Numbered from the stretch's first letter, positions 11,786 through 26,989 are shown. The stretch is DNA of 31,087 nucleotides from a virus (IMGVR_UViG_3300035665_000174:1-31087), one strand, 5' to 3'. Translations and numbers: made by a program. Notes: generated from the letters alone by a model not told the origin.

Positions 11786-12588
11786 TGTTAGGAACATATA
11801 CATATCACGAAATAATAAGAAAATGTGTGGTATCATTTGGAACTCTTTTTAATAATATTGAAATTAGAAGAGTTAAAGATTCTAAGGTAGAGGTAATGAA
11901 AGTTCCTCTAGCATATGGACCTAAACAAAAGTTTCTAGCTAGATTAAGAGCTGTAGAAGATCTAACTAAAAAAGATGTTTTTCAAATCACTCTTCCTAGA
12001 ATAGCATTTGAATTAAAGGATATTTCTCCAGATCCATCTAGAAAAGTAGCCCCAACTCAATATATAAGATCAACTCAAAATGATGGGTCGGTCAAAAAAG
12101 TTTATATGCCAGTTCCATATAATTTGACTTTTGAGTTATCAATTTTATCTAAAAATCAAGATGATGGTCTTCAAATTTTAGAGCAAATTTTGCCAAATTT
12201 TCACCCATCATTTAATATAACTGTCAAATTAATTCCAGATCTTGGAGAATATAAAGACTTTCCTGTTACATTAAATGGCATTGATATTCAAGATGATTAT
12301 GAAGGTGATTACGATAAGCGTAGAACCTTAATTTACACTCTTACATTTACATGTAAAACTTATCTATATGGTGCCATTACAGATGTTACTGGAGATCTCA
12401 TTACAAAAGTTCAGGTCGATTATTCTACAGATTCTAGTGTCACTGCACCTAGGGAAGTTAGGTATACGGTGACACCAGATCCAGAATCTGCAGATCCAGA
12501 TGATGATTTTGGATTTAATGAGTTAAAGTCGGAGTTTACAGATGCAAGAGAATGGAATCCCGTCACAGGACAAGATGAAGAAATTTGA
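11785..12588 (+). CDS. gp15: Tail sheath stabiliser and completion protein gp15
   Basis: 267 residues, close to T4 gp15 (272). It is the connector that caps the contracted or extended tail and joins it to the neck. Recognised by position after gp14 and by segments typical of the family (P-R-I-A-F-E-L, M-P-V-P-Y-N-L-T-F-E-L, R-R-T-L-I-Y-T-L-T-F-T). The start overlaps the gp14 stop by one base, with a GGGGG-type ribosome site just upstream. It overlaps the small terminase gene by 14 bases. Confidence 0.85.
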   Translation: MLGTYTYHEIIRKCVVSFGTLFNNIEIRRVKDSKVEVMKVPLAYGPKQKFLARLRAVEDLTKKDVFQITLPRIAFELKDISPDPSRKVAPTQYIRSTQNDGSVKKVYMPVPYNLTFELSILSKNQDDGLQILEQILPNFHPSFNITVKLIPDLGEYKDFPVTLNGIDIQDDYEGDYDKRRTLIYTLTFTCKTYLYGAITDVTGDLITKVQVDYSTDSSVTAPREVRYTVTPDPESADPDDDFGFNELKSEFTDAREWNPVTGQDEEI

Positions 12589-13027
12589 AGGAATTGATGC
12601 TGCATTAAATGTTGATTTAACCGTAGTTCCTTCTTCATCTGAAATTGAGCCAATAAATGCTGGTAATGAAATTGAAGTGCCTGCAATTTTTGACAAAGAA
12701 CAATTAAAAAAAGATTATGAATTTACAAGAGGAAATTTATATTCTTTAATTCAAAAAGGTCAAGAAGCTGTAGATGGAATTCTAGAATTAGCTAGAGAAT
12801 CAGATCAACCTAGAGCATATGAGGTTGCTGGTCAATTGGTTAAACACATTGGAGATGTGGCAGAAAAATTAATGGATCTCCAAAAGAAAGTATCTGAAAT
12901 TGAAAATCCTACAAAGAAAAAGAGAGATACTCAGATTACCAACAACACGATGTTTGTTGGTAGCACTGCAGAGCTAGCAAAATTCCTAAAGCAGCAAAGA
13001 GAAATAAATAAATCAGAACAAGAGTGA
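12575..13027 (+). CDS. gp16: Small terminase subunit gp16
   Basis: 150 residues from the ATG at 12575; T4 gp16 has 164. An in-frame start at 12542 would add eleven residues deep inside gp15 and is less likely. The protein is mostly helical, with a long central helix pair (K-K-D-Y-E-F-T-R-G-N-L-Y-S-L-I and Y-E-V-A-G-Q-L-V-K-H-I) that fits the oligomerising core of small terminases. It recognises phage DNA and stimulates the gp17 motor. Unlike T4, the large subunit does not follow directly: 3.7 kb of other genes lie between. Confidence 0.8.
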   Translation: MKKFEGIDAALNVDLTVVPSSSEIEPINAGNEIEVPAIFDKEQLKKDYEFTRGNLYSLIQKGQEAVDGILELARESDQPRAYEVAGQLVKHIGDVAEKLMDLQKKVSEIENPTKKKRDTQITNNTMFVGSTAELAKFLKQQREINKSEQE

Positions 13028-13081: not shown

Positions 13082-13621
13082 ATGAAAGCACCAAAGACTT
13101 ATGCTCAGTTTATTACTGAAGCTTCAAATTTAGCAGAGGGAAATCCTACTGCTAGGATGATGCAAAAATCTAAAACCAAAGTAACTGGTCATATTTCAGC
13201 AGATCGTGGTGATGATGAATCTGCTAATAGAGAAAAGAGAAAAAATGTAGAAACCAAACTCAAAAAGAGATTTGGTGGATATCAAAAGGGAGTTGGGGAG
13301 TATAAGTATTCTTCTGGTGAAGGAACTGGTAGAGAAGTTTCATATCAGGTAACAAAGCCTGAGAAAATGTCAAAGAGAAAATTTGGCAAATTGGTAAGAA
13401 GAACTGGGCGTGAAGCAGGTCAGGAGTCTGTAATTACCAAAGACAAAGACAAGCCAGCGAAGTTGCATTATACGGAAAAAGGTAGTAAGATGAAGTCTGA
13501 CACTATCGGCAAAACCAAAGCAGGAAAGCATCCTGAGGGTTATGGCGAAACTTCTGGAACTAAAGTCAGAAGTGGTAAACTTCCTAAAAAAACTACTAAA
13601 GGAGCAATGCATTATGGCTGA
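13082..13621 (+). CDS. Basic protein with capsid-targeting N-terminus (candidate internal head protein)
   Basis: 179 residues. Residues 5-14 (K-T-Y-A-Q-F-I-T-E-A) nearly match the capsid-targeting peptide that starts T4 internal proteins (M-K-T-Y-Q-E-F-I-A-E-A). The match includes the I-x-E site after which gp21 protease cuts, here after E13; a second possible site is L-A-E at E19. The rest is strongly basic and low in hydrophobics (many Lys, Arg, Gly, Ser, Thr), with no membrane segment, as expected for a DNA-associated protein inside the head. No known domain is seen. Its start has no clear ribosome site; the leader reads CCCACCATG. Inferred role: packed with DNA and injected. It could instead be an unrelated basic DNA-binding protein. 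Confidence 0.65.
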   Translation: MKAPKTYAQFITEASNLAEGNPTARMMQKSKTKVTGHISADRGDDESANREKRKNVETKLKKRFGGYQKGVGEYKYSSGEGTGREVSYQVTKPEKMSKRKFGKLVRRTGREAGQESVITKDKDKPAKLHYTEKGSKMKSDTIGKTKAGKHPEGYGETSGTKVRSGKLPKKTTKGAMHYG

Positions 13622-13760
13622 TGTAAAAATGTGGGAAGAAGATCAATTCAAATGTAAGTATTGTGGGATTACCCCACCAAAAGGTCATTGGAGACCTTTT
13701 ACTTGGATTCAAAAGCATGAATTAAATTGCGCAAAAAATCCTGATTTAGAAAAGAAATGA
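13614..13760 (+). CDS. 48-residue zinc-finger protein
   Basis: I chose the ATG at 13614 because a good ribosome site (AAAGGAG) lies 10 bases upstream, although it overlaps the previous stop by eight bases; a longer frame upstream is unlikely. C14-x2-C17 and H35-x3-C39 form a CCHC zinc-finger pattern, with aromatic residues between (H-W-R-P-F-T-W). Such tiny fingers bind nucleic acid or protein. It overlaps the next gene by ATGA, so all three are coupled. Function unknown; the placement suggests an early-infection or packaging accessory. Confidence 0.7.
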   Translation: MADVKMWEEDQFKCKYCGITPPKGHWRPFTWIQKHELNCAKNPDLEKK

Positions 13761-14233
13761 AATCTTTTAAAGAATATTCTTCTGTAGAAGTCTCTCCTGT
13801 TCAGGAGGGGCTTCTTTCTCGTATCGTAGATAAAGTGGATAAGGTTTTGGCTCCACCAAAGCCAAAATTTAAAGCAAGATATGGATACGATAGTAATACT
13901 GGAAAGCCATTAGCTGGAACTAAAGTAAAAAGTAAACCACAAGTCAAGTCTTCACATGAAGATGATCCATGGTTGAAGCATTCTTCTGGTGCAGAAAAGA
14001 AAGCTCATTATAGACAGCTAAGAGGGGAAGAGTATATTCAAGAAAAATCAGAAGAAAAATATTGTCGTTTATGCTGCAAAAAAGAAAAACGTGAGCAGTG
14101 TGGATATGGTCCTACCATGTGGGATAGGTATACAGTCAATGATGCAACTGCTGCAGAAAAGAAAGAGGCTGCGATAGAATCTGGCATAATTCAAGAATCT
14201 AAATTGAAATTGACTAAATTTAAAACAAAATAA
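13757..14233 (+). CDS. Basic cysteine-motif protein, weak capsid-targeting N-terminus
   Basis: 158 residues, starting by ATGA overlap with the zinc-finger gene. Residues 1-11 (M-K-S-F-K-E-Y-S-S-V-E) resemble the capsid-targeting peptides of its neighbours but lack the Ile/Leu two residues before the Glu, so targeting is doubtful. The protein is rich in Lys, and residues 103-115 carry a C-x2-C-C-x7-C cluster that could bind a metal. No known family is recognised. A 12-bp hairpin with two G-T pairs lies at 13787-13814 within codons 11-20. It is probably co-expressed with the two genes before it. Confidence 0.65.
   Translation: MKSFKEYSSVEVSPVQEGLLSRIVDKVDKVLAPPKPKFKARYGYDSNTGKPLAGTKVKSKPQVKSSHEDDPWLKHSSGAEKKAHYRQLRGEEYIQEKSEEKYCRLCCKKEKREQCGYGPTMWDRYTVNDATAAEKKEAAIESGIIQESKLKLTKFKTK
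13787..13814 (+). other. Terminator-like hairpin inside a gene start
   Basis: A 12-bp stem (two G-T pairs) closes a GTTC loop and is followed by TTTC. It begins 31 bases into the gene at 13757. It resembles an intrinsic terminator but is fully coding. Confidence 0.6.
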
Positions 14234-14236
14234 ATA
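14229..14236 (+). promoter_or_regulatory. Possible late promoter (AATAAATA)
   Basis: Seven of eight bases of the late box match, 22 bases before the gene at 14258. Its TAA is the stop of the gene before. Confidence 0.45.
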
Positions 14237-14257
14237 TTACTGATGAACTAAAGATAG

Positions 14258-14875
14258 ATGTCTTACATCAGGCACGATAAAGATAATAATACGGTTTCTC
14301 CACAACCATCCGCAAATCAACTGTCTGTATTTGATGGTTGTGAAGGATGGTCAGAAATTACGTACGATGTTTGGAATGGTGATTATGTCGCTAGAAATTC
14401 TGACAATACAGTGAGAACTCCTGGAGTATTTCAGGCAAGAAATTCTGATAATACAACCAGAACTCCAACAACATACCAACGTCATGATATCAACAATCAA
14501 CCAATTAATGATTGTGAGATTGGCGAAGATGACCCAGCAAACGCAGCAGAACCTGATGCTACGGCATGGGTGTTGATGGATGGTCCTTTTTACAACACTC
14601 CTGGTGATCCAAATTCTGGATTTGTTGGGGGTCAGAGTTGGAGAAAGATGGCTCCATCTGCTGCTGTAAATGGCAAAACTTCATACATCTATGGAGATGA
14701 AACAGTAACTTGGACTGGAACCGAATGGCAGTATGCCAATCTTTATACTGGAGTTATTGCCTCATCTTCAAGTGATGTTACATATCCATGGTTGGCAACA
14801 TGGAACAATGGATATACTGGTGCCAAGATTACATCAACATATATTAAGACAACTAATTACCCAGCGGTTCCCTAA
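14258..14875 (+). CDS. Unassigned protein with N-terminal tandem repeats, likely virion surface
   Basis: 205 residues, no family recognised. The first 90 residues hold four imperfect repeats of about 15 residues: I-R-H-D-K-D-N-N, A-R-N-S-D-N-T-V-R-T-P, A-R-N-S-D-N-T-T-R-T-P, and Q-R-H-D-I-N-N. The C-terminal part is rich in Trp, Tyr, Gly and Thr (W-R-K-M-A-P, T-W-T-G-T-E-W-Q-Y) and looks like a beta domain of the kind seen in adhesins. The next gene begins two bases after its stop and also looks like a surface protein. A 10-bp inverted repeat (14301-14310 with 14333-14342) lies in its start. Confidence 0.6.
   Translation: MSYIRHDKDNNTVSPQPSANQLSVFDGCEGWSEITYDVWNGDYVARNSDNTVRTPGVFQARNSDNTTRTPTTYQRHDINNQPINDCEIGEDDPANAAEPDATAWVLMDGPFYNTPGDPNSGFVGGQSWRKMAPSAAVNGKTSYIYGDETVTWTGTEWQYANLYTGVIASSSSDVTYPWLATWNNGYTGAKITSTYIKTTNYPAVP
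14301..14342 (+). other. Inverted repeat inside a gene start
   Basis: CACAACCATC and GATGGTTGTG form a perfect 10-bp stem with a 22-base loop, 44-85 bases into the gene at 14258. Confidence 0.55.
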
Positions 14876-14877
14876 TC

Positions 14878-16155
14878 ATGGCACAGTATAACAGAAATAC
14901 CCGAGAGTTCTTAAATCAAGAAAGAACGTTATTCGAAGTAATGATGCTTTCGGATAACTGGGGAACTCGTGCCGATTTTCGCCCTGACTTTACAAGCAAG
15001 AATAGACTAAAGACATCTCCATACGAAACATCATTCTTCAATACATTTCAGTTTGGAAAAGAAACTGATGTGTGGGATGAATCAACTGCTAATGGAGGAA
15101 CAGCAACTCATAATGTGAATCTTTCTGGTGTTGTAATGGCAGTAACTAGCACTGCTGGTTCTGAAGTAATTCGTCAGACCAAGCATGTGATGAGATATAT
15201 TCCTGGTAGAACATCTACAGTAAGTTTTGCTATTCGTTTAGAAACTCCTGTTACTGGTGTTCGTAGAAGATTTGGATTGTTTGATGTAAATAACGGTGCT
15301 TACTTTGAAGATGCTGGGGATGGAAATTACTATTGTGTATTGAGAAGCAAGGCAAGTGGCACTGTAGTTGAAACTAGAGTTGCTAGAGCGAATTGGAATG
15401 GTGATAAGTTGGATGGAACTGGTAAAAGTGGATACATTGCTAGCCCTACAGCACAACATATGATTAATATTGAATATGAATGGTATGGTGCTGGTCAAGT
15501 AAAATTTTCGTATATTATTGATGGAGAGACTCATCATATCCATACATTCAATACTGCAAATGTTTTGGATACGGTTTGGTCATCAACTCCATTTTTACCT
15601 ATTCGTTTAGAACTGACAAATGTAACTGGTGCTGCTGGAACACATTACATGTATCAAGGTTCTAACTCAATCATTAGTGAGGGTGTGCCAGAGAAATTGG
15701 GAACATCTCAAAATGTCATCACTCCACTAGCAGGTAGAACGATGGCGCTTGCTAATACTTTTTATCCAATAGTTAGCATTCGTTTAAAGAGCACTGCACT
15801 TCAAGGTATTGCTCTTCCTATGGCATTTCAGGCAGCAACAACTGATAATGCCAACATCTTCTACAAACTAATCCTAAATACAACTCTAACTGGTGCTTCA
15901 TGGGTTGATATGGCAGATCCAAATTCATTCACTCAATATGATGTAAGTGCCACTACTTTGAGTGGAGGAACAGATTTGGATGCTGGTTTTGTTGTTTCTG
16001 GTGTAAGTTCTACAATCCAAATTAATTCAAAAACAGCAAATCAAATTGGAAGAAGTTCCATGGGAACTGTTTCAGATACTCTTACTCTTGCTGTTGCTTG
16101 TGGAACAGCAAACAAAAGTGCAATTGCCTCAATGACCTGGATAGAACAACGATGA
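14878..16155 (+). CDS. Beta-rich virion structural protein / adhesin candidate
   Basis: 425 residues. The N-terminus (N-T-R-E-F-L-N-Q-E-R-T-L-F-E-V-M-M) is followed by a middle region (about 30-270) with the alternating strands of a lectin-like sandwich (T-V-S-F-A-I-R-L, R-F-G-L-F-D-V-N-N-G-A-Y-F). The C-terminal domain (about 280-425) contains N-A-N-I-F-Y-K-L-I, Y-D-V-S-A-T and A-S-M-T-W-I-E; I know similar C-terminal domains from marine phage structural proteins. It has no signal peptide or membrane segment. It probably decorates the capsid or tail and binds glycans (inference). It ends in an ATGA overlap with the next gene. Confidence 0.65.
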   Translation: MAQYNRNTREFLNQERTLFEVMMLSDNWGTRADFRPDFTSKNRLKTSPYETSFFNTFQFGKETDVWDESTANGGTATHNVNLSGVVMAVTSTAGSEVIRQTKHVMRYIPGRTSTVSFAIRLETPVTGVRRRFGLFDVNNGAYFEDAGDGNYYCVLRSKASGTVVETRVARANWNGDKLDGTGKSGYIASPTAQHMINIEYEWYGAGQVKFSYIIDGETHHIHTFNTANVLDTVWSSTPFLPIRLELTNVTGAAGTHYMYQGSNSIISEGVPEKLGTSQNVITPLAGRTMALANTFYPIVSIRLKSTALQGIALPMAFQAATTDNANIFYKLILNTTLTGASWVDMADPNSFTQYDVSATTLSGGTDLDAGFVVSGVSSTIQINSKTANQIGRSSMGTVSDTLTLAVACGTANKSAIASMTWIEQR

Positions 16156-16427
16156 AAACATTCAAAGACTTTATTTCAGAAGGAACAGCATGGACTCGAA
16201 AAGAGGGTCAAAATAAAAGTGGAGGTCTTAACGAAAAGGGTCGCAAATCTTACGAAGCAGAAAATCCTGGAAGTGATCTTAAGGCACCTTCAAAGAAAGT
16301 TGGAAATCCCCGCAGGGCGTCATTTTGTGCCAGAATGAAGGGAATGAAGAGGAAGTTAACCAGTAAAAAAACTGCATCAAATCCAGATTCTAGAATTAAT
16401 AAATCATTAAGAGCTTGGAATTGTTAA
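16152..16427 (+). CDS. Basic protein with capsid-targeting N-terminus (DUF6321-like)
   Basis: 91 residues from the ATG that overlaps the previous stop. It begins M-K-T-F-K-D-F-I-S-E-G, very close to the T4 internal-protein targeting peptide, with a gp21-type I-S-E cleavage site after E10. After it comes a conserved basic module: G-G-L-N-E-K-G-R-K-S-Y, then S-F-C-A-R-M-K-G-M-K-R-K-L-T, then S-R-I-N-K-S-L-R-A-W-N-C. This module also occurs in many marine phages and bacteria; I believe it is DUF6321, from memory. Its function is unknown. The leader peptide suggests it is placed in the head with the DNA. Confidence 0.75.
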   Translation: MKTFKDFISEGTAWTRKEGQNKSGGLNEKGRKSYEAENPGSDLKAPSKKVGNPRRASFCARMKGMKRKLTSKKTASNPDSRINKSLRAWNC

Positions 16428-16488
16428 TATTGTAACTGTTATTTGATTAGTTTTCCTATATAATACCATTGGTCTCGTGGTAAGACGA

Positions 16489-16722
16489 ATGGATACTAAA
16501 ACATGCCCTAAATGTGGTGCTTGCTGGATTGGAGGGCAACATTATTGGTCTGGAACCAATAAACTAGGAAATGAAAGTGAATTAGCTAGTCTAGTTTGCG
16601 ATAGATTTGGAGATAATACTTGCATTAATCCATGCAAGGGAACTACTAAAGGGGATGGTTGGGAAAAAAGATTAGCAAGTATGGAATCTTTAGATAAAGA
16701 CATAAGTAGAGTAAATGAATAA
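16489..16722 (+). CDS. Cysteine-rich small protein upstream of gp17
   Basis: 77 residues from the ATG at 16489. A GTG at 16477 would add four residues (M-V-R-R) and is possible. C6, C9 and C12 (C-P-K-C-G-A-C) with C37, C45 and C49 form a likely zinc site. I recall a similar protein just before gp17 in cyanophages, which suggests a link to packaging, but no function is known. It ends two bases before gp17. A perfect 8-bp hairpin lies at 16542-16562. Confidence 0.7.
   Translation: MDTKTCPKCGACWIGGQHYWSGTNKLGNESELASLVCDRFGDNTCINPCKGTTKGDGWEKRLASMESLDKDISRVNE
16542..16562 (+). other. Hairpin inside a gene start
   Basis: TTATTGGT pairs perfectly with ACCAATAA around CTGGA, 54-74 bases into the gene at 16489. 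Confidence 0.55.
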
Positions 16723-16724
16723 TT

Positions 16725-18377
16725 ATGCCATTAGAAGAAGTTTATCTTGGTAATCCAAATTTAAAAAAGGCAAACGTAGCCCAAGAATTCACATCTGATC
16801 AAGTAGAAGAATTCATCAAGTGCGCTGCCGATCCAGTTTACTTTATCAAAAAATATATTAAGATTGTATCTCTTGATGAGGGTTTAATACCCTTTGAGAT
16901 GTACGATTTTCAGGTGGGTATGGTAGAAAGATTCCATAATCATCGTTTTAATATAGCAAAACTACCAAGACAGTCTGGTAAATCAACCGTAGTCACATCA
17001 TATCTTCTTTGGTATATTATTTTTAATAGCAATGTTAACGTTGCTATTCTTGCTAACAAAGCTGCAACTGCTAGGGAGATGCTTAGTAGATTGCAGCTTT
17101 CATATGAAAATCTACCTAAGTGGATGCAACAGGGTATTTTATCTTGGAATAAAGGATCTTTAGAATTGGAAAATGGTTCTAAGATTCTTGCTGCATCTAC
17201 TTCTGCATCTGCAGTTCGAGGGATGTCATTCAATATAATATTCTTAGACGAATTTGCATTCGTTCCAAATAACATTTCTGATCAGTTTTTCTCGTCAGTA
17301 TATCCGACGATTTCATCTGGTAAATCCACAAAAGTTATTATTATTTCTACCCCACATGGTATGAACATGTTCTATAAGCTTTGGCATGATGCCGAGCTTG
17401 GTAGAAATGAATACATCAGAACTGAGGTTCATTGGTCTGAAGTTCCAGGTAGAGATGAGAGATGGAAAGAACAAACAATTAAGAATACCTCAGAAGAACA
17501 ATTCAGGGTAGAATTTGAATGTGAATTCTTAGGTTCAGTTGATACATTGATTAGCCCATCTAAGCTTCGTATGATGACCTACGATGATCCTATTAAAAGA
17601 TCTGGAGGTTTGGATGTATATGAAGACCCAATAAAAGATAAAACGTATGTAATTACAGTAGACGTTGCTAGGGGCATAAGTAAAGACTTTAGTGCATTTA
17701 CTGTTATTGACACTACGACAATACCATATAAATTAGTGGCAAAGTATAGGAACAGTGATATTAAACCTATTTTATTCCCTAATGTAATTTTTGATGTAGC
17801 TAAAGCATATAACCATGCATATATCTTAATTGAGGTAAATGATATTGGTGGTCAGATTGCTGATATTCTACAGTATGATTTGGAATATGACAACATACTG
17901 ATGTGTTCTATGAGAGGTAGAGCTGGTCAAATTGTCGGTCAAGGTTTTTCTGGAAAGAAATGTCAGCTTGGGGTAAAAATGTCATCTACAGTTAAAAAGA
18001 CTGGTTGCTCTAATTTAAAAGCTTTAATTGAAGAAGATAAACTACTCTTAAGTGATTATGAAATAATTTCCGAATTGACTACCTTTATTCAAAGAGGTCA
18101 GGCATGGGAAGCTGAAGAAGGATGTAATGATGACTTAGCTATGTGTTTAGTTATATTTTCCTGGTTAGCTCTTCAGCCATATTTTAAAGAGCTTCACGAT
18201 AATGACGTTAGACAAAGAATATATGATGATCAAAGAGAAGCCATAGAAGCTGATATGGCACCTTTTGGTTTTGTTGATGATGGATTAGATGATACGAGTT
18301 TTGTTGATAATGACGGTGATCGATGGCACTTGGATGAGTATGGAGACATGTCATACATGTGGGATTATAACAGCTAA
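16725..18377 (+). CDS. gp17: Large terminase subunit gp17 (packaging motor and nuclease)
   Basis: 550 residues; T4 gp17 has 610. The ATPase half shows a Walker A loop at 81-88 (P-R-Q-S-G-K-S-T), Walker B with the catalytic acid at 171-177 (I-I-F-L-D-E-F), and the coupling motif S-T-P-H-G at 208-212. The RNase H-like nuclease half has the metal-binding acids D313 (T-V-D-V-A-R-G), E370/D373 (I-E-V-N-D-I-G-G) and D469/D470 (C-N-D-D-L-A-M). It cuts the concatemer and pumps DNA into the prohead through the gp20 portal. The ribosome site is weak, so it may depend on coupling with the Cys-rich gene two bases upstream. All catalytic residues are intact. Confidence 0.95.
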   Translation: MPLEEVYLGNPNLKKANVAQEFTSDQVEEFIKCAADPVYFIKKYIKIVSLDEGLIPFEMYDFQVGMVERFHNHRFNIAKLPRQSGKSTVVTSYLLWYIIFNSNVNVAILANKAATAREMLSRLQLSYENLPKWMQQGILSWNKGSLELENGSKILAASTSASAVRGMSFNIIFLDEFAFVPNNISDQFFSSVYPTISSGKSTKVIIISTPHGMNMFYKLWHDAELGRNEYIRTEVHWSEVPGRDERWKEQTIKNTSEEQFRVEFECEFLGSVDTLISPSKLRMMTYDDPIKRSGGLDVYEDPIKDKTYVITVDVARGISKDFSAFTVIDTTTIPYKLVAKYRNSDIKPILFPNVIFDVAKAYNHAYILIEVNDIGGQIADILQYDLEYDNILMCSMRGRAGQIVGQGFSGKKCQLGVKMSSTVKKTGCSNLKALIEEDKLLLSDYEIISELTTFIQRGQAWEAEEGCNDDLAMCLVIFSWLALQPYFKELHDNDVRQRIYDDQREAIEADMAPFGFVDDGLDDTSFVDNDGDRWHLDEYGDMSYMWDYNS

Positions 18378-18444: not shown

Positions 18445-21213
18445 ATGGCATCAACGCAACTATCCCCTGGGGTTGTCGTTCTTGAAAGAGATTTAACTTC
18501 TGTAGCAAATGCAACCGTAGATAACATTGCTGCAATTGTTGGATCTTTCGAGAAAGGACCAATCGAGAAGATCGTTAACATTACATCAGAAAAGGAATTA
18601 CTCTCAGTCTTTGGTAGACCAAATGACTTTAACTACGAGTATTGGTTTTCTGCAGCTCAGTTTCTCCTTTACGGAGGATCATTAAAAGTTATCCGTGCAA
18701 ATAACAGTGCATTGAAAAATGCTATTGATACTGCACAGTTTGTTCTATCAACTTTTAGTGCTTCAGATACAACCTTAACCGTTGCATCTCCTACAGATAT
18801 TACTGTTGGGGATCTACTGTTAATCGATGCTGAAATTTTAACTGTATCTTCTGTTTCTGGAAACAACATTAGCGTTGCGAGAGGTCAGTTAGCATCATCT
18901 GCAGCATCTCACGCTGCTGGTGCAAGCATCACTTTAATTGAAGAGACTGGAACTTCAACAACAGTTAATGAGGGTGCGACATTCAGCAGTTCAGATCTAA
19001 CTCTTACTGTTACTTCTGCAGCAACACTTGCTGTAAATACCAACGACTATATTCGTATTGATGATGAAATTCTTCGTGTTTCTGCGATTGTTGGAAATGA
19101 TCTTACTGTAGTAAGAGCACAGTTGAATACAACTGCTGCAGCTCATACAAATGGATCTACTGTAGATCTATTAACTGTAACTACAGCAAAGACAACAATT
19201 AATGAAAGCACAACTACTGGTGTTGCTGCTCCTTTAATCAAGAATATCGAAACTTACGAATCAACAATTGAAGATGCAGCTAATAACTGGAAGTGGGCTG
19301 CTAGAAACCCTGGAAAATATGGCAATTCTCTAAGAGTTGTCATGACTGATGCTGGCGCAGATCAAATTCTCGCATTGAATCAGCCAACAACTTCAGAGTG
19401 GGAGTTCACAAATAATTCTGAAGTTTCATATGCATCAGCAAATATCTTTGGTAAGGTATACAATTACAGTGTTGTGTTAACACTAAAAGCTGATAGCACT
19501 TTAGTTGGTGATTTTGCTGCTGGAAATTTCTTTACTGCAAACTCTGGTAATACTACTGGTAGAATTGTTGCTTGGGATAGAGTATCCAGAAAATTAGAAA
19601 TTTCTATTAGCTCAACATCATCTGCAGTTTTATCAGCTAATCAGGCAATTACTGAACTTTCCAATAATAATGGTGTTGCTGGATCTGCTACTGGCGACTC
19701 AGCTTCTATTGAATCGATTGAAAGAAAACTATATGTTTATCTAAACCAAGGTTCACCTGCTTTCCAGGCAAACCAAACTATCGTTGATTCTAATGCAGCT
19801 AATATTTTAATTAGCGCAGTTAGAGATGAATATGAGGAGAGAACTTACGGTAAAAACCAGAAGTGGATTAATGTTGCACCAAAGCCTGCAACTTCACAGT
19901 GGGTAGCAGATCGTGGTGGTAGCAGAGACCAGTTCCACATTCTAGTTATTGATGGCGATGGTCTTCTAACTGGAACTCCTGGTTCACTACTTGAAAAGCA
20001 TCTATTCGTATCTAAGGCATCTGATGCGAAAGGCAATCAAGGTGAGTCAATCTACTATAAGGAAGTTCTAAAAAATTCTTCCAACTATCTATATTGGGGA
20101 TCACATGAAACAGCAAATCTACATGATGTAAATCCTTCAATTAATGGATCTATTGGTTTGAGTGGAATCAATAGAAACTTTGATATTTTCAAGGGTGTAG
20201 CTCTTGTAGACATCGACAATCCATCTGGAACTAATGCTCAAGCAGTTGCTTTAATTGGAACTGCAAATAATGCAACTCTCAAGTATTCATTACAGGGTGG
20301 TGTTGATGGATATGAGCTTTCAAGACCAGATGTGTTCTCGGCATATGATTTAATTTCTGATGCTGAGACTGAGAATGTAGATTACATTCTTTGTGGACCT
20401 AGCATGTCAACTGTCAATGACAGCATTGCAAAGGCACAAAAAGTAATTGACATTGCAGCAAATAGAAAAGATTGTATCGCATTTGTATCTCCACAAAGAT
20501 CTGATGTTGTCGGTGTTGCAACCACTGCACAAATTGTTGATAGAACTATCACTTTCTTTAATCAACTAACGTCTACATCATATGCAGTATTTGATAATAA
20601 CTACAAGTATGTTTATGATAAGTATAATGATAAGTATCGTTACATCCCATGTAATGCTGACGTTGCAGGTTTAACCTTGTCAACTACTCTTAATCAGGAG
20701 CCTTGGTATTCTCCAGCTGGATTTAATAGAGGTAATCTAAAAAATGCAATTAAGCTTGCATATTCACCTCTAAAAGATCAGAGAGATCAACTCTATAATG
20801 CAAGAGTTAATCCAATCGTAAGCTTCCCTGGTCAAGGAATTATTCTGTTCGGTGACAAGACTGCATTAGCATATCAATCTGCATTTGATAGAATTAATAT
20901 TCGTCGTCTATTCCTCGTTATCGAAGAAGCAATTTCTGGTTCTGCTAGAAGTCAGCTATTCGAACTAAATGATGAATTCACAAGATCATCATTCAAGAAT
21001 CTTGTTGAGCCTTATCTAAGATCGGTTCAGGCAAGAAGAGGTATTGTTGATTTCCTTGTTGTTTGTGATGCAAGCAATAATCCTCCTGAGGCAATTGATA
21101 GAGGAGAGTTCTATGCTGAAATTTTTGTAAAACCAACGAAGTCAGTTAACTACATTACATTAACCTTTACTGCAACAAGAACTGGCGCTTCGTTTGCTGA
21201 AGTTACTTCGTGA
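18445..21213 (+). CDS. gp18: Tail sheath protein gp18
   Basis: 922 residues; T4 gp18 has 659. The N-terminus (S-P-G-V-V-V-L-E-R-D, then G-S-F-E-K-G-P-I-E-K) and the C-terminal segments (F-P-G-Q-G-I-I-L-F-G-D-K-T, I-N-I-R-R-L-F-L-V-I-E) are standard sheath sequence; the C-terminal domain forms the contractile inner layer. The extra length is mainly two tandem modules at residues 98-166 and 174-244 (I-D-A-E-I-L-T-V-S and I-D-D-E-I-L-R-V-S, each ending H-x-x-G-x-x). A G-D-F-A-A-G type insert lies around 355-460. These would sit on the outside of the sheath. A strong ribosome site (TTAGGAG) fits high expression. Confidence 0.93.
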   Translation: MASTQLSPGVVVLERDLTSVANATVDNIAAIVGSFEKGPIEKIVNITSEKELLSVFGRPNDFNYEYWFSAAQFLLYGGSLKVIRANNSALKNAIDTAQFVLSTFSASDTTLTVASPTDITVGDLLLIDAEILTVSSVSGNNISVARGQLASSAASHAAGASITLIEETGTSTTVNEGATFSSSDLTLTVTSAATLAVNTNDYIRIDDEILRVSAIVGNDLTVVRAQLNTTAAAHTNGSTVDLLTVTTAKTTINESTTTGVAAPLIKNIETYESTIEDAANNWKWAARNPGKYGNSLRVVMTDAGADQILALNQPTTSEWEFTNNSEVSYASANIFGKVYNYSVVLTLKADSTLVGDFAAGNFFTANSGNTTGRIVAWDRVSRKLEISISSTSSAVLSANQAITELSNNNGVAGSATGDSASIESIERKLYVYLNQGSPAFQANQTIVDSNAANILISAVRDEYEERTYGKNQKWINVAPKPATSQWVADRGGSRDQFHILVIDGDGLLTGTPGSLLEKHLFVSKASDAKGNQGESIYYKEVLKNSSNYLYWGSHETANLHDVNPSINGSIGLSGINRNFDIFKGVALVDIDNPSGTNAQAVALIGTANNATLKYSLQGGVDGYELSRPDVFSAYDLISDAETENVDYILCGPSMSTVNDSIAKAQKVIDIAANRKDCIAFVSPQRSDVVGVATTAQIVDRTITFFNQLTSTSYAVFDNNYKYVYDKYNDKYRYIPCNADVAGLTLSTTLNQEPWYSPAGFNRGNLKNAIKLAYSPLKDQRDQLYNARVNPIVSFPGQGIILFGDKTALAYQSAFDRINIRRLFLVIEEAISGSARSQLFELNDEFTRSSFKNLVEPYLRSVQARRGIVDFLVVCDASNNPPEAIDRGEFYAEIFVKPTKSVNYITLTFTATRTGASFAEVTS
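18736..18942 (+). repeat. Sheath surface module, copy 1
   Basis: Residues 98-166 of gp18: L-T-V-A-S-P, then G-D-L-L-L-I-D-A-E-I-L-T-V, then V-A-R-G-Q-L, then S-H-A-A-G-A-S-I. Same layout as the next copy and as 2185-2430 in the first gene. Confidence 0.75.
18964..19176 (+). repeat. Sheath surface module, copy 2
   Basis: Residues 174-244 of gp18: L-T-V-T-S-A-A, then D-Y-I-R-I-D-D-E-I-L-R-V, then V-V-R-A-Q-L-N-T-T, then A-H-T-N-G-S-T-V. The repeat unit is about 76 residues. Confidence 0.75.
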
Positions 21214-23599: not shown

Positions 23600-23827
23600 A
23601 TGCCTAGTGAATATGCACAAGATATCGTAAATGCTCTTTTTTCTGGTCAAAAAGACCTATCAGATTATGTAGATGCTGGTATGAAAACTCTTGCATTAGA
23701 TGCAATTGATGATCTTAAACAGCAAATTGGTATGAATATGTTTGAGACTGAAGAAGAAGAGGAAGACGATGAACTAGAAACCGAAGAAGAGGAAACCGAC
23801 GATGAAGCTGATTACGGAGAAAGTTGA
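23600..23827 (+). CDS. gp67: Prohead core protein gp67-like
   Basis: 75 residues, like T4 gp67 (80), and in the same place between portal and protease. Residues 1-50 are a helical head (Y-V-D-A-G-M-K-T-L-A-L-D-A-I-D-D-L-K), and residues 51-75 are almost only Glu and Asp, as in T4 gp67. It is part of the scaffold core and is expected to be cut by gp21. The last 26 bases overlap gp21. A GGGAG ribosome site lies upstream. Assignment rests on size, acidity and position, since the sequence itself is low in information. Confidence 0.75.
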   Translation: MPSEYAQDIVNALFSGQKDLSDYVDAGMKTLALDAIDDLKQQIGMNMFETEEEEEDDELETEEEETDDEADYGES

Positions 23828-24446
23828 AGAAGCCAAACTTATTGTAGAAAATAAGAATGGTAAAAAATCATATACAATTGAAGGTATTTTTCTTCAAGGT
23901 AATCTGAAGAATAGAAACGGTAGATATTATCCCGTTGATATTCTTGAAAGAGAAGTAAAAAAATATGAAGACTCTTTTATTAAGAGTGGTAGAGCTTTGG
24001 GTGAACTAGGTCATCCAGACGGACCAACTATTAATTTAGATAGAGTATCACATTTAATTACTTCCTTAAATAGAGAGGGTAACAACTTTAAAGGTAAAGC
24101 AAGAATTCTCGACACTCCTATGGGGAATATTGCAAAGAATTTACTGGATGAAGGAGTTAAGTTAGGAGTTTCATCTAGAGGATTGGGAACTCTTAAAGAA
24201 GAGAACGGAATGAAAGTTGTTAGTGATGACTTTATGCTTGCAACTGCTGCTGATATTGTAGCAGATCCTTCTGCCCCTGATGCATTTGTTCAAGGTATTA
24301 TGGAAGGTAAAGAATGGATTTGGCAGGGAAATAGACTAACAGAAAAAAGAATTGAAACATATAAAAAGTCAATTGACAATTCACCAGTTAGTGAATTGAC
24401 TGAGCGAAAGATTCGAGCATTTGCAGATTTTATCCAAAATCTGTAA
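23802..24446 (+). CDS. gp21: Prohead protease gp21
   Basis: 214 residues, matching T4 gp21 (212), peptidase family S77. The catalytic His is H71 (G-E-L-G-H-P-D-G-P). The Ser lies in G-V-S-S-R-G-L-G (S124 or S125), and D151/D155 (A-D-I-V-A-D-P-S) fit the acidic position. It degrades the core and trims gp23 and internal proteins after (Leu/Ile)-x-Glu during head maturation, including the candidate sites in this window. The start is set by an AGAGGA site nine bases upstream, formed from the Glu codons of gp67. Confidence 0.93.
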   Translation: MKLITEKVEEAKLIVENKNGKKSYTIEGIFLQGNLKNRNGRYYPVDILEREVKKYEDSFIKSGRALGELGHPDGPTINLDRVSHLITSLNREGNNFKGKARILDTPMGNIAKNLLDEGVKLGVSSRGLGTLKEENGMKVVSDDFMLATAADIVADPSAPDAFVQGIMEGKEWIWQGNRLTEKRIETYKKSIDNSPVSELTERKIRAFADFIQNL

Positions 24447-24500: not shown

Positions 24501-25541
24501 ATGTCAAAGGGCTTTGAAAATCTAGAGGAAAACCAAGTGACTGCAAACGCAAAGGCTGCAGATCCTCAAGGCAAGCTTGAGAATGAAGGTTCAGGTTTAG
24601 GTTCTGTTGAGGATCTAGGCGGACCTACACCACAAAACAGCAAGCCAGATGATGAATCAAATAAATTGAGAACACCATCTAAGGGTCAGATTCAATCTCC
24701 AAAGAATAAGCCTTCTGATGCATCTGCTGATAAGCAGGAAACCATTCAGAAGAAGCCTACCTTTGAGGAGTCTGAAGTTGAAGGTGAAACTCTAGAAGAG
24801 GAAATTGAAGATGAAGTAGAAATGATCGAAATCGATCTTTCTGCAGATGTTGCTGCTTTGACAGAAGGTGAAGATCTAACTGAAGAGTTCAAAGAGAAAG
24901 CAAAGACTATCTTTGAAGCTGCAGTTATCTCTCGTCTTAATGAAGAGCTTGAGTATATTCACGAGCAATATGCAGAAGTTCTAGCAGAAGAAATTGAGAC
25001 CGTAAAGCAAGAACTAGCTGAGCAGGTAGATGACTATCTCTCATATGCTGTTTCACAGTGGATCGAAAATAACGCACTTGCTATTGAGCATGGCGTTAAG
25101 AGTGAAATGGCAGAATCTGTTCTAGAAGGTCTCAAGCAAGTTTTCGTCGAGAATTACATTAGTATTCCCGATGAGAAAGTTGATCTTGTAGATGAAATGG
25201 TAGATCAACTTGATGTTATGGAAGATAAGCTCAACGAGCAAATCGCAGAAAATGTAGAACTCCATAAGACACTTGGAGGATTTATCAAGAATGGGATTGT
25301 GGCAGAAATTTCTGAAGGTTTGAGCCTTTCCCAAAAGGAAAAGCTTTCATCATTAGCAGAAGCAGTTGAGTTTGAAACCGAAGAATCATTCCGCGAAAAA
25401 GTAAAGACTCTCAAAGAATCATATTTCTCAAGCAAGCCTCAGGCTGGCGGAGAAGTAATTTCAGAAGAGACTCAAGCACAAAATGCTCCAGTATCAGATT
25501 CTATGTCTAGATACGTCACAGCATTATCTCGCTGGAAATGA
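24501..25541 (+). CDS. gp22: Prohead scaffold core protein gp22
   Basis: 346 residues; T4 gp22 has 269. It lies between protease and major capsid protein, as in T4. Residues 1-90 are polar and likely unfolded (many Asn, Pro, Gly, Lys). Residues about 90-330 are strongly acidic, long helices with coiled-coil character (E-E-L-E-Y-I-H-E-Q-Y-A-E-V-L). It forms the inner scaffold and is then destroyed by gp21; several (Leu/Ile)-x-Glu sites are present (for example I-S-E near 275 and 320). The sequence overlaps no other gene and has its own late promoter and an AGGAG site. Confidence 0.88.
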   Translation: MSKGFENLEENQVTANAKAADPQGKLENEGSGLGSVEDLGGPTPQNSKPDDESNKLRTPSKGQIQSPKNKPSDASADKQETIQKKPTFEESEVEGETLEEEIEDEVEMIEIDLSADVAALTEGEDLTEEFKEKAKTIFEAAVISRLNEELEYIHEQYAEVLAEEIETVKQELAEQVDDYLSYAVSQWIENNALAIEHGVKSEMAESVLEGLKQVFVENYISIPDEKVDLVDEMVDQLDVMEDKLNEQIAENVELHKTLGGFIKNGIVAEISEGLSLSQKEKLSSLAEAVEFETEESFREKVKTLKESYFSSKPQAGGEVISEETQAQNAPVSDSMSRYVTALSRWK

Positions 25542-25615: not shown

Positions 25616-26989
25616 ATGTTCAATACAGAGCATCTGCAAGAGAAGTGGGCACCTATTCTTGAGCATTCGGAAATCGAATCGATTTCTGATCCTTATAGAA
25701 AGGCTGTTACTTCAATCTTGCTCGAAAACCAAGAGAAGTTCCTCAGAGAAGAGCGTGGATTCCTCTCAGAAGCTGCTCCAACCATGAACTTAGGTGGTTC
25801 AAGCAACGGCTTCACTGGCGCAGCTACATCGACTGGTCCTGTCGCTGGTTTCGATCCTGTTCTAATCAGCCTAATTCGCCGCTCAATGCCTAAGCTTATT
25901 GCTTATGACATTTGTGGTGTTCAGCCTCTCCAAGGTCCTACAGGTCTCATTTTCGCAATGAGAACTACTTATGGCACCAATCGTGATATGCAGAATGGTG
26001 CAACCGAAGCATTCTTCAACGAAGCAGATTCTGAGTTCTCATCTGAGAACAGTGGTGATTCGTTGGCTTCCAATGATATGACTGGAACTAACCCTGCAGT
26101 TCTAAACGACAGCGGAACCTACACCATTGGTGGTCAGGGCATGACAACCGCTCAGTCGGAAGCTCTAGGTGATGGTTCGGGTAATCACTTCCGCGAAATG
26201 GGCTTCTCAATCGAGAAGATTCAAGTTGGTGTTAAGTCAAGAGCACTAAAAGCTGAGTATACTCTAGAACTAGCTCAGGATCTTAAGGCTGTTCACGGTC
26301 TAGATGCTGAAAGCGAGCTAGCAAACATCCTCAGCACTGAAGTTCTTGCTGAAATCAACCGCGAGGTAGTAAGAACCGTATATAGAATTGCTCGCCCTGG
26401 TGCTCAGAACAACGTTGCTACCGCTGGTACTTTTGACCTTGATGTTGACTCAAACGGTCGTTGGGCTGTTGAGAAGTTCAAGGGTCTAATGTTCCAAATC
26501 GAGCGCGATCTAAATGCAATCGGTCATGAGACTCGTAGAGGAAAGGGCAACATGCTAATCTGCTCAGCAGACGTAGCATCCGCTCTAGCAATGGCTGGTG
26601 TTCTCGATTATTCATCTGGTCTATCAGCTGCAACTGGTGGAATCAGCAACAATATCGATGACAATGGTAGCACCCTTGCTGGTACTCTATTCGGTCGTGT
26701 TAAGGTATTCGTTGATCCTTACTCAGCAAACATCAGTGATACTCACTTCTATGTTGCTGGTTATAAGGGTTCAACTCCTTATGATGCTGGTCTCTTCTAC
26801 TGCCCATACGTTCCTCTTCAGATGGTTCGTGCAGTTGGTCAGGATACCTTCCAGCCTAAGATCGGCTTCAAGACCCGTTACGGAATGGTTGCAAACCCAT
26901 TCGCAGAAGGCACTAGCCAGGGTCAAGGTGCTCTTAATGCTAACGCAAACCGCTACTACAGAAGAGTTAGAATCGCTAACCTCATGTGA
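25616..26989 (+). CDS. gp23: Major capsid protein gp23
   Basis: 457 residues (T4: 521). The HK97-type capsid fold is expected. Diagnostic segments include D-P-V-L-I-S-L-I-R-R-S-M-P, G-P-T-G-L-I-F-A-M-R and Y-K-G-S-T-P-Y-D-A-G. The N-terminal region ends in F-L-S-E-A, a gp21 cleavage site after E52, so the mature protein would begin at A53 and have 405 residues. Codon choice differs from most neighbours, with more C-ending codons (CTC, AAC, CGC, TTC), as expected for the most abundant protein. A dedicated late promoter and a downstream terminator isolate it as its own transcript. A 9-bp hairpin with one G-T pair lies at 25667-25689. Confidence 0.97.
   Translation: MFNTEHLQEKWAPILEHSEIESISDPYRKAVTSILLENQEKFLREERGFLSEAAPTMNLGGSSNGFTGAATSTGPVAGFDPVLISLIRRSMPKLIAYDICGVQPLQGPTGLIFAMRTTYGTNRDMQNGATEAFFNEADSEFSSENSGDSLASNDMTGTNPAVLNDSGTYTIGGQGMTTAQSEALGDGSGNHFREMGFSIEKIQVGVKSRALKAEYTLELAQDLKAVHGLDAESELANILSTEVLAEINREVVRTVYRIARPGAQNNVATAGTFDLDVDSNGRWAVEKFKGLMFQIERDLNAIGHETRRGKGNMLICSADVASALAMAGVLDYSSGLSAATGGISNNIDDNGSTLAGTLFGRVKVFVDPYSANISDTHFYVAGYKGSTPYDAGLFYCPYVPLQMVRAVGQDTFQPKIGFKTRYGMVANPFAEGTSQGQGALNANANRYYRRVRIANLM
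25667..25689 (+). other. Hairpin inside the start of gp23
   Basis: TCGGAAATC pairs with GATTTCTGA (one G-T pair) around GAATC, 52-74 bases into the gene. Confidence 0.5.

Follow-up and report, generated by a model that had tools for sequence, protein, structure and literature searches.

Candidate head cargo with a T4-type capsid-targeting peptide encoded between the terminase genes of a T4-like cyanophage

The closest described counterparts of the proteins considered here are the internal proteins of phage T4. Genetic analysis of internal protein IPIII assigned targeting to residues 4 and 7 and processing to residues 8 and 10, with cleavage by gp21 following L/I-x-E (PMC9026906), and blocking of type IV restriction has recently been shown for T4 IP2 and IP3 (PMC12373910). 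In the ocean, few viruses are more abundant than the T4-like cyanophages, and several enzymes found in their particles had no known way in. The virion proteome of S-CREM2 includes a kinase, a cytidylyltransferase, an S-adenosylmethionine (SAM) hydrolase and a protein annotated as Cas9-like, besides several proteins without assignment (PMC10665884). Virions of S-SM1 likewise contain the cytidylyltransferase (PMC3037559), as do those of S-SZBM1, where it begins MRFRQFIIEA (PMC9146016), and an enzyme related to it is reported from S-SCSM1 virions. Here two genes are described, at 13082..13621 and 16152..16427 (both + strand), from an IMG/VR virus record (IMGVR_UViG_3300035665_000174; hereafter the window, 31,087 bases), which covers late genes of a cyanophage of the T4 type. 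Their products are probably head cargo and a cyanophage counterpart of the T4 internal proteins, with a targeting peptide, a gp21 cut and SAM-lyase cargo, a reading to which a probability of roughly 0.78 is given.

The initial annotation had noted that both proteins are small and basic, start like T4 internal proteins and occur in a phage with gp21, and all of this held when the open reading frames (ORFs) were re-read. The 13082 protein (179 amino acids (aa), net charge +23) begins MKAPKTYAQFITE/ASNLAEG and the 16152 protein (91 aa, +15) begins MKTFKDFISE/GTAW, a slash marking a predicted cut; the T4 internal protein ORFs of 100 and 193 aa begin MKTYQEFIAEAR and MKTYQEFIAEAS. The pattern [FY]xx[FY][ILMVF]xE matches exactly twice in the approximately 30 window genes, at these two N-termini. 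In the 16152 protein F4, F7, I8 and E10 stand in the exact register of IPIII, and in the 13082 protein Y7, F10, I11 and E13 correspond to IPIII Y4, F7, I8 and E10 with the same spacing, shifted by three residues. The putative targeting peptides are thus MKAPKTYAQFITE (13082..13120, +), with a predicted cut after E13 (I-T-E/A), and MKTFKDFISE (16152..16181, +), with a predicted cut after E10 (I-S-E/G) at a conserved junction. A second predicted prohead-protease site follows in the 13082 protein (ASNLAE, 13121..13138, +; L-A-E/G), and this site, NLAE19/G, lies at a conserved domain boundary and is the one conserved in homologs. A 54-aa ORF of T4 (18966-19130) starts MKTFKEFIKED, the same pattern as in the internal proteins.

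A gp21-type protease and a gp22-type core are both encoded in the same phage as the candidate cargo. The gp21 prohead protease (23802..24446, +; Peptidase_S77, 1.2e-34) is the presumed processing enzyme, the gp22 scaffold (24501..25541, +; PF25623, 1.3e-75) presumably belongs to the core to which the targeting peptide binds, and gp23, the major capsid protein (25616..26989, +; PF07068, 1e-140), has its own predicted site, GFLSE52/AAP, that follows the same L-x-E/A rule. A third protein between the terminase genes, of 158 aa and net charge +11 (13757..14233, +), begins MKSFKEYSSVEV, followed by PVQE/G and a YCRLC module. It keeps the targeting positions 4 and 7 (F and Y) and has lost processing positions 8 and 10; the earlier remark that it has no clear cleavage site is qualified by the possible later site PVQE17/G.

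Residues 38-148 of the 13082 protein give a match to the S-adenosylmethionine lyase family PF23780 (13193..13525, +; 8.5e-8, 32.7 bits against a curated cut-off of 28). Sequence-profile searching of the PDB with this protein returned chance matches to G proteins only, and a fold search was therefore needed. Modelled with 30 homologs, the protein shows strands and helices in the SAM-lyase order, strand-helix-strand-strand-helix-strand; the family fold is a trimeric alpha-beta sandwich, and its enzymes cleave SAM to MTA and homoserine lactone. The best three fold matches of the model among 350,542 PDB chains were 6znb and 6zm9, both the phage SAM lyase Svi3-3, and 7ock_L, the T3 SAMase bound to host MAT. 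Matched by eye from motif and spacing, G72-E73-Y74, E85 and Q114-E115 are the equivalents of the Svi3-3 active-site residues G56, Y58, E69, Q104 and E105; G72, Y74, E85, Q114 and E115 are invariant in the 30 homologs, and the Tyr-to-Glu spacing of 11 is that of Svi3-3. The 13082 protein is a predicted SAM-lyase-fold enzyme. It also has a long lysine-rich C-terminal tail.

The 16152 protein carries DUF6321 (PF19846) at residues 20-89 (16209..16418, +; 5.4e-23, 81.8 bits against a curated cut-off of 28.5). The domain is modelled as helical, with a predicted local distance difference test (pLDDT) score of 76.5, and the model had no match in a PDB fold search; the plasmids searched held no DUF6321 relative of the query, and no paper on the family turned up in the open-access literature. 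By profile search, P-SCSP1g, MEP401, S-CBP4 and Planktothrix phage Pra-JY27 have DUF6321 and lack the S77 protease and gp23, both of which the same search found in T4, P-SSM2, S-CREM2 and S-SZBM1. The DUF6321 proteins of the former four phages have no targeting peptide and start MAKSPAWTRKEG, MAKTPAWTRKEG, MAQKKNVRL or similar, and the MAKSPAWTRKEG and MAKTPAWTRKEG starts, in two of the four, fall where the domain begins in the window protein. Loss of the N-terminal motif in homologs had been named beforehand as evidence against packaging; in these phages, which lack the T4 head apparatus, the loss is what targeting predicts. DUF6321 also occurs in T4-GC119 proteins, in which many small domains are strung ahead of it (RDWFSKSKSSDGKPGWVQLGG, DACYHKVKSRYSVWPSAYASGALVKC and KCWKGYEKKGTQ in S-SM1_115, L376:4262-5749); they form a mosaic family of head-region proteins. 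T4-GC119 was not used as virion evidence, being "structural" in the S-P4 record and "hypothetical" in Sullivan 2010.

Relatives of both window proteins are present in the S-CREM2 virion proteome (PMC10665884). The SAM lyase gp6 (PF23780, 2.3e-19, the same Pfam family as the 13082 protein) begins MKDFDSFLEE, retains G-Q-Y, the E with unchanged spacing, and Q-D, and gave 19 peptides in purified virions; gp6, gp12 and gp14 gave 19-28 peptides each. A C-terminal part of gp137 is assigned to DUF6321, and the whole protein gave four virion peptides (4.1% coverage). Similar N-termini are found in the virion proteins gp13 (MKDLHSFLTE), the kinase gp14 (MKRFDAFLTEE), gp136 (MQTFSMFFSE) and the cytidylyltransferase gp154 (MKNFSSFLTEA), and 17 residues into gp12 (RFASFMAE/A); gp12 (L162:7704-10313) is annotated as Cas9-like, and a Pfam search found no domain in it. 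The predicted cuts would leave new N-termini of SSLSR in gp6, ADEKQ in gp154 and EETEAH in gp14, and of VAAWQR in S-CREM1 ORF179. The T4 pattern occurs in the first 20 residues of 4/52 S-CREM2 virion proteins versus 0/166 others (p=0.003), and a looser pattern, chosen afterwards, in five versus none (p=0.0007). In cargo of the kinase, cytidylyltransferase and nuclease kinds, the targeting peptide is succeeded by a short stretch resembling LGL...G-x-G-x-W-x-D, which looks like a shared small module (S-CREM2 gp14, L162:10579-12846; P-SSM2, L290:18143-19417; Syn9 gp184, L377:2236-3384).

A motif search of marine T4-like phages with a cut-site logo had been proposed earlier. With five cyanophages pooled, the stricter pattern [FY]xxF[ILMF]xE was found at 12/22,458 positions in the first 25 residues versus 14/271,120 elsewhere, about ten times denser, and the site logos fit. 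Census matches at the N-termini of UvsY-like and oxygenase-like ORFs look like chance. Among environmental relatives, 41 distinct cytidylyltransferase N-termini, retrieved with a P-SSM2 query after an S-CREM2 query gave one, have F4 in 41, F7 in 41, L/I8 in 40 and E10 in 39; positions 2-4, 7, 8 and 10 show little or no variation, 5, 6 and 9 vary, and 39/41 carry the T4 pattern. In 32 distinct stand-alone SAM-lyase N-termini, F/Y stands at position 4 in all 32 (an aromatic residue there was demanded by the search pattern itself), F/Y at 7 in 32, M/I/V/L at 8 in 32 and E/D at 10 in 30.

Head targeting is therefore supported in four ways. The determinant positions agree with the genetics of T4; a published virion proteome contains relatives of both proteins; across 32 and 41 distinct N-termini the peptide is conserved with essentially the T4 positions alone fixed; and it is absent from the DUF6321 homologs of four phages without gp21 and gp23 homologs. 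Of the earlier suggestion that the proteins are packaged and injected against host defence, this first part is supported, and injection and a defence role are putative. Support for cleavage after the Glu comes only from the site logos.

Many relatives carry the SAM-lyase domain at the end of a longer ORF (400-1046 aa), where either the motif recurs internally ahead of the domain (SFSAFLAEG, TYREFIAEG, SYKDFIAEG) or a shorter [ILVM]-x-E stands there; all 167 SAM-lyase ORFs have E, or E then G, directly before the domain. Ahead of DUF6321 a Glu lies no more than five residues before its Trp in every distinct context, and the P3 residue at this junction is hydrophobic in 77% (71% with other clustering) versus 27% at other Glu residues of the same ORFs (p=5e-12), with P2 hydrophobic in 2%. 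As read from sequence, this preference is the gp21 rule. The presence of the prohead-protease consensus [ILVMF]-x-E ahead of both domains suggests cargo chains that may be cut in the head. The relative L005, whose SAM-lyase protein is 98% identical to that of the window, runs the 13757 module directly into DUF6321 as ESGIIKE/SAWTRKEG, where the window 13757 protein ends ESGIIQE/SKLKLTKFKTK; in two further relatives (L006 and L008) the SAM lyase is fused to DUF6321. The modules thus occur in two states, either separate, each led by a peptide, or linked through a site of the protease type, and such fusions with protease-type junctions are new here. It is a tentative proposal, held at somewhat under even odds, that effector modules behind one targeting peptide form chains that gp21 would cut at internal sites in the prohead into separate injected effectors. 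With similar reserve, recombination at the site might add, fuse or split modules, the window being the split state and L005 the fused state. Cutting of the joined forms by gp21 is hypothetical. The P3 preference was borderline at the KCWK module boundary (p=0.018).

Several observations count against head cargo of this kind. The PF23780 score is just 4.7 bits over the cut-off, and the model of the 13082 protein has a mean pLDDT of 64.6 and a fold E-value of 2.9e-3. S-PM2 had no strict motif match in the census. At the DACY, YCRLC and DWF module boundaries, with few contexts, no significant P3 preference was found, and the chain proposal thus rests on the SAM-lyase and DUF6321 junctions. S-CREM2 gp137 is without a clear N-terminal motif (MSDQNFKDYAKSL), and its four peptides may fall outside DUF6321. 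The S-SZBM1 SAM-lyase polyprotein (_194) and the motif-bearing _191 and _192 are absent among the 30 virion proteins detected for that phage, so that virion presence was found for family members in S-CREM2 but not in S-SZBM1, although the shortness of the list and the small size of _191 and _192 temper their non-detection. The S-CREM2 authors warn that CsCl preparations can carry non-virion proteins (PMC10665884), and the literature yielded no published cut N-termini for such cyanophage proteins.

The best-surviving alternative, although unlikely, is that the proteins are packaged and cut but structural, as basic DNA-condensing head proteins whose SAM-lyase fold does no catalytic work during infection. 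The net charges of +23 and +15, the lysine-rich tails, the weak Pfam score and the lack of a PDB fold match for DUF6321 would suit this, whereas the invariance of the five active-site equivalents in 30 homologs and the retention of G-Q-Y, E and Q-D by gp6 argue for an enzyme. It is less probable again, at around one chance in ten, that the site of action is the infected cell, close to the terminase, and that the proteins were detected in virions of relatives as contaminants; the position of the genes between gp16 and gp17 and the contamination that the S-CREM2 authors allow for fit this, but the motif splits virion from non-virion proteins four to none, and gp6, gp12 and gp14, with their 19-28 peptides, share it while encoded far from the terminase. 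That the peptide merely persists from duplicated genes or shuffled domains and plays no part in targeting is the least probable, for all that modules are clearly shuffled and fused and the S-SZBM1 carriers went undetected, since positions 4, 7, 8 and 10 are fixed while 5, 6 and 9 vary over 41 and 32 distinct N-termini, the peptide recurs on unrelated cargo (SAM lyase, cytidylyltransferase, kinase, nuclease, DUF6321), and it is lost in phages without a gp21-type protease.

If the two proteins are head cargo, the N-terminal peptide (aromatic, two residues, aromatic, aliphatic, any, Glu) would steer each into the prohead scaffold core, the gp21-type protease would cut after the Glu, and the freed cargo would stay in the head with the DNA. 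Injected with the DNA, the SAM-lyase-fold enzyme might immediately deplete host SAM, which would disable restriction and methylation that depend on it; DUF6321, a very basic module, may be bound to DNA. As IP2 and IP3 block restriction, an injected SAM lyase would fit the role of such cargo, here against SAM-dependent systems. For this phage, it is an inference that the peptide targets the proteins and is cut, that the cargo is injected, that the enzyme is active and that restriction is countered. Such an address label would explain how enzymes enter the particles and let head cargo be listed from genome sequence, SAM destruction at DNA entry would be a likely counter to cyanobacterial restriction, and the junction sites would be a way to build and release several effectors from one gene.

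The gene order of the window is necks, gp16, seven small genes, gp17, gp18-gp20, gp21, gp22 and gp23, and the genes at 13082, 13757 and 16152 lie between the terminase small subunit gp16 (12542..13027, +; phrog_445, 7.5e-52) and large subunit gp17 (16725..18377, +; PF03237, 3e-24). For this region the nearest orthologs are ORF177 and ORF179 of S-CREM1. The start codon of a 48-aa protein (13614..13760, +; ortholog S-SZBM1_193) with a zinc-finger-like pattern, CKYCG...HELNC, overlaps the stop of the SAM-lyase gene. It and another small Cys-rich protein (16477-16722; CPKCGACWIGGQHYW), both possible zinc ribbons, border the cargo genes. An acidic 205-aa protein (14258-14875; phrog_17325) has N-terminal RNSDNTTRTP-like repeats. 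It is followed by a 425-aa virion structural protein (14878..16155, +; phrog_1645, 2.6e-163), whose ortholog S-SZBM1_190 was detected in virions (PMC9146016 Table 1); the 16152 ATG overlaps its stop as ATGA, which makes the mechanical TTG start at 16098 unnecessary. In S-SZBM1 an 87-aa protein adjoining gp16 (S-SZBM1_195, L161:8122-8385) has the third-highest exponentially modified protein abundance index (2.66) of the virion.

The belief that nothing alike was described in cyanophages needs qualifying, as a virion SAM hydrolase, kinase and cytidylyltransferase were known from S-CREM2 (PMC10665884) and a virion cytidylyltransferase from S-SM1 (PMC3037559); no paper tying a targeting peptide to cyanophage cargo was found in the open-access literature. 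T4 IPI, IPII and IPIII share with the window proteins the N-terminal determinants and their spacing, small size and basic charge, and both phages encode a gp21-type protease, scaffold and capsid protein. The cargo is unrelated, GmrSD inhibitors in T4 and a predicted SAM-lyase-fold enzyme and DUF6321 here. Further differences are the three-residue shift and second, domain-boundary site of the 13082 protein and the existence of fused multi-module forms. S-CREM2 gp6, detected in virions, has the same Pfam family and a T4-type N-terminus, but is 414 aa long with a second region and a gene far from the terminase; the available part of its report makes no mention of a targeting peptide (PMC10665884). 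Polyvalent proteins are likewise multi-domain phage proteins thought to be packaged and injected, and differ in that the part of that paper available mentions neither cyanophages nor prohead-protease junctions (PMC5512222). Head ejection proteins of the giant phages phiKZ and SPN3US are also processed by a prohead protease after x-x-E, sometimes at several sites, but have other propeptides and a P3 preference for S/A. The phage SAM lyases T3 SAMase and Svi3-3 share the predicted fold, active-site residues and Y-to-E spacing of the 13082 protein, which, unlike them, has a very basic tail and a capsid-targeting peptide in front, so that it is presumably delivered with the virion instead of being made early in infection.

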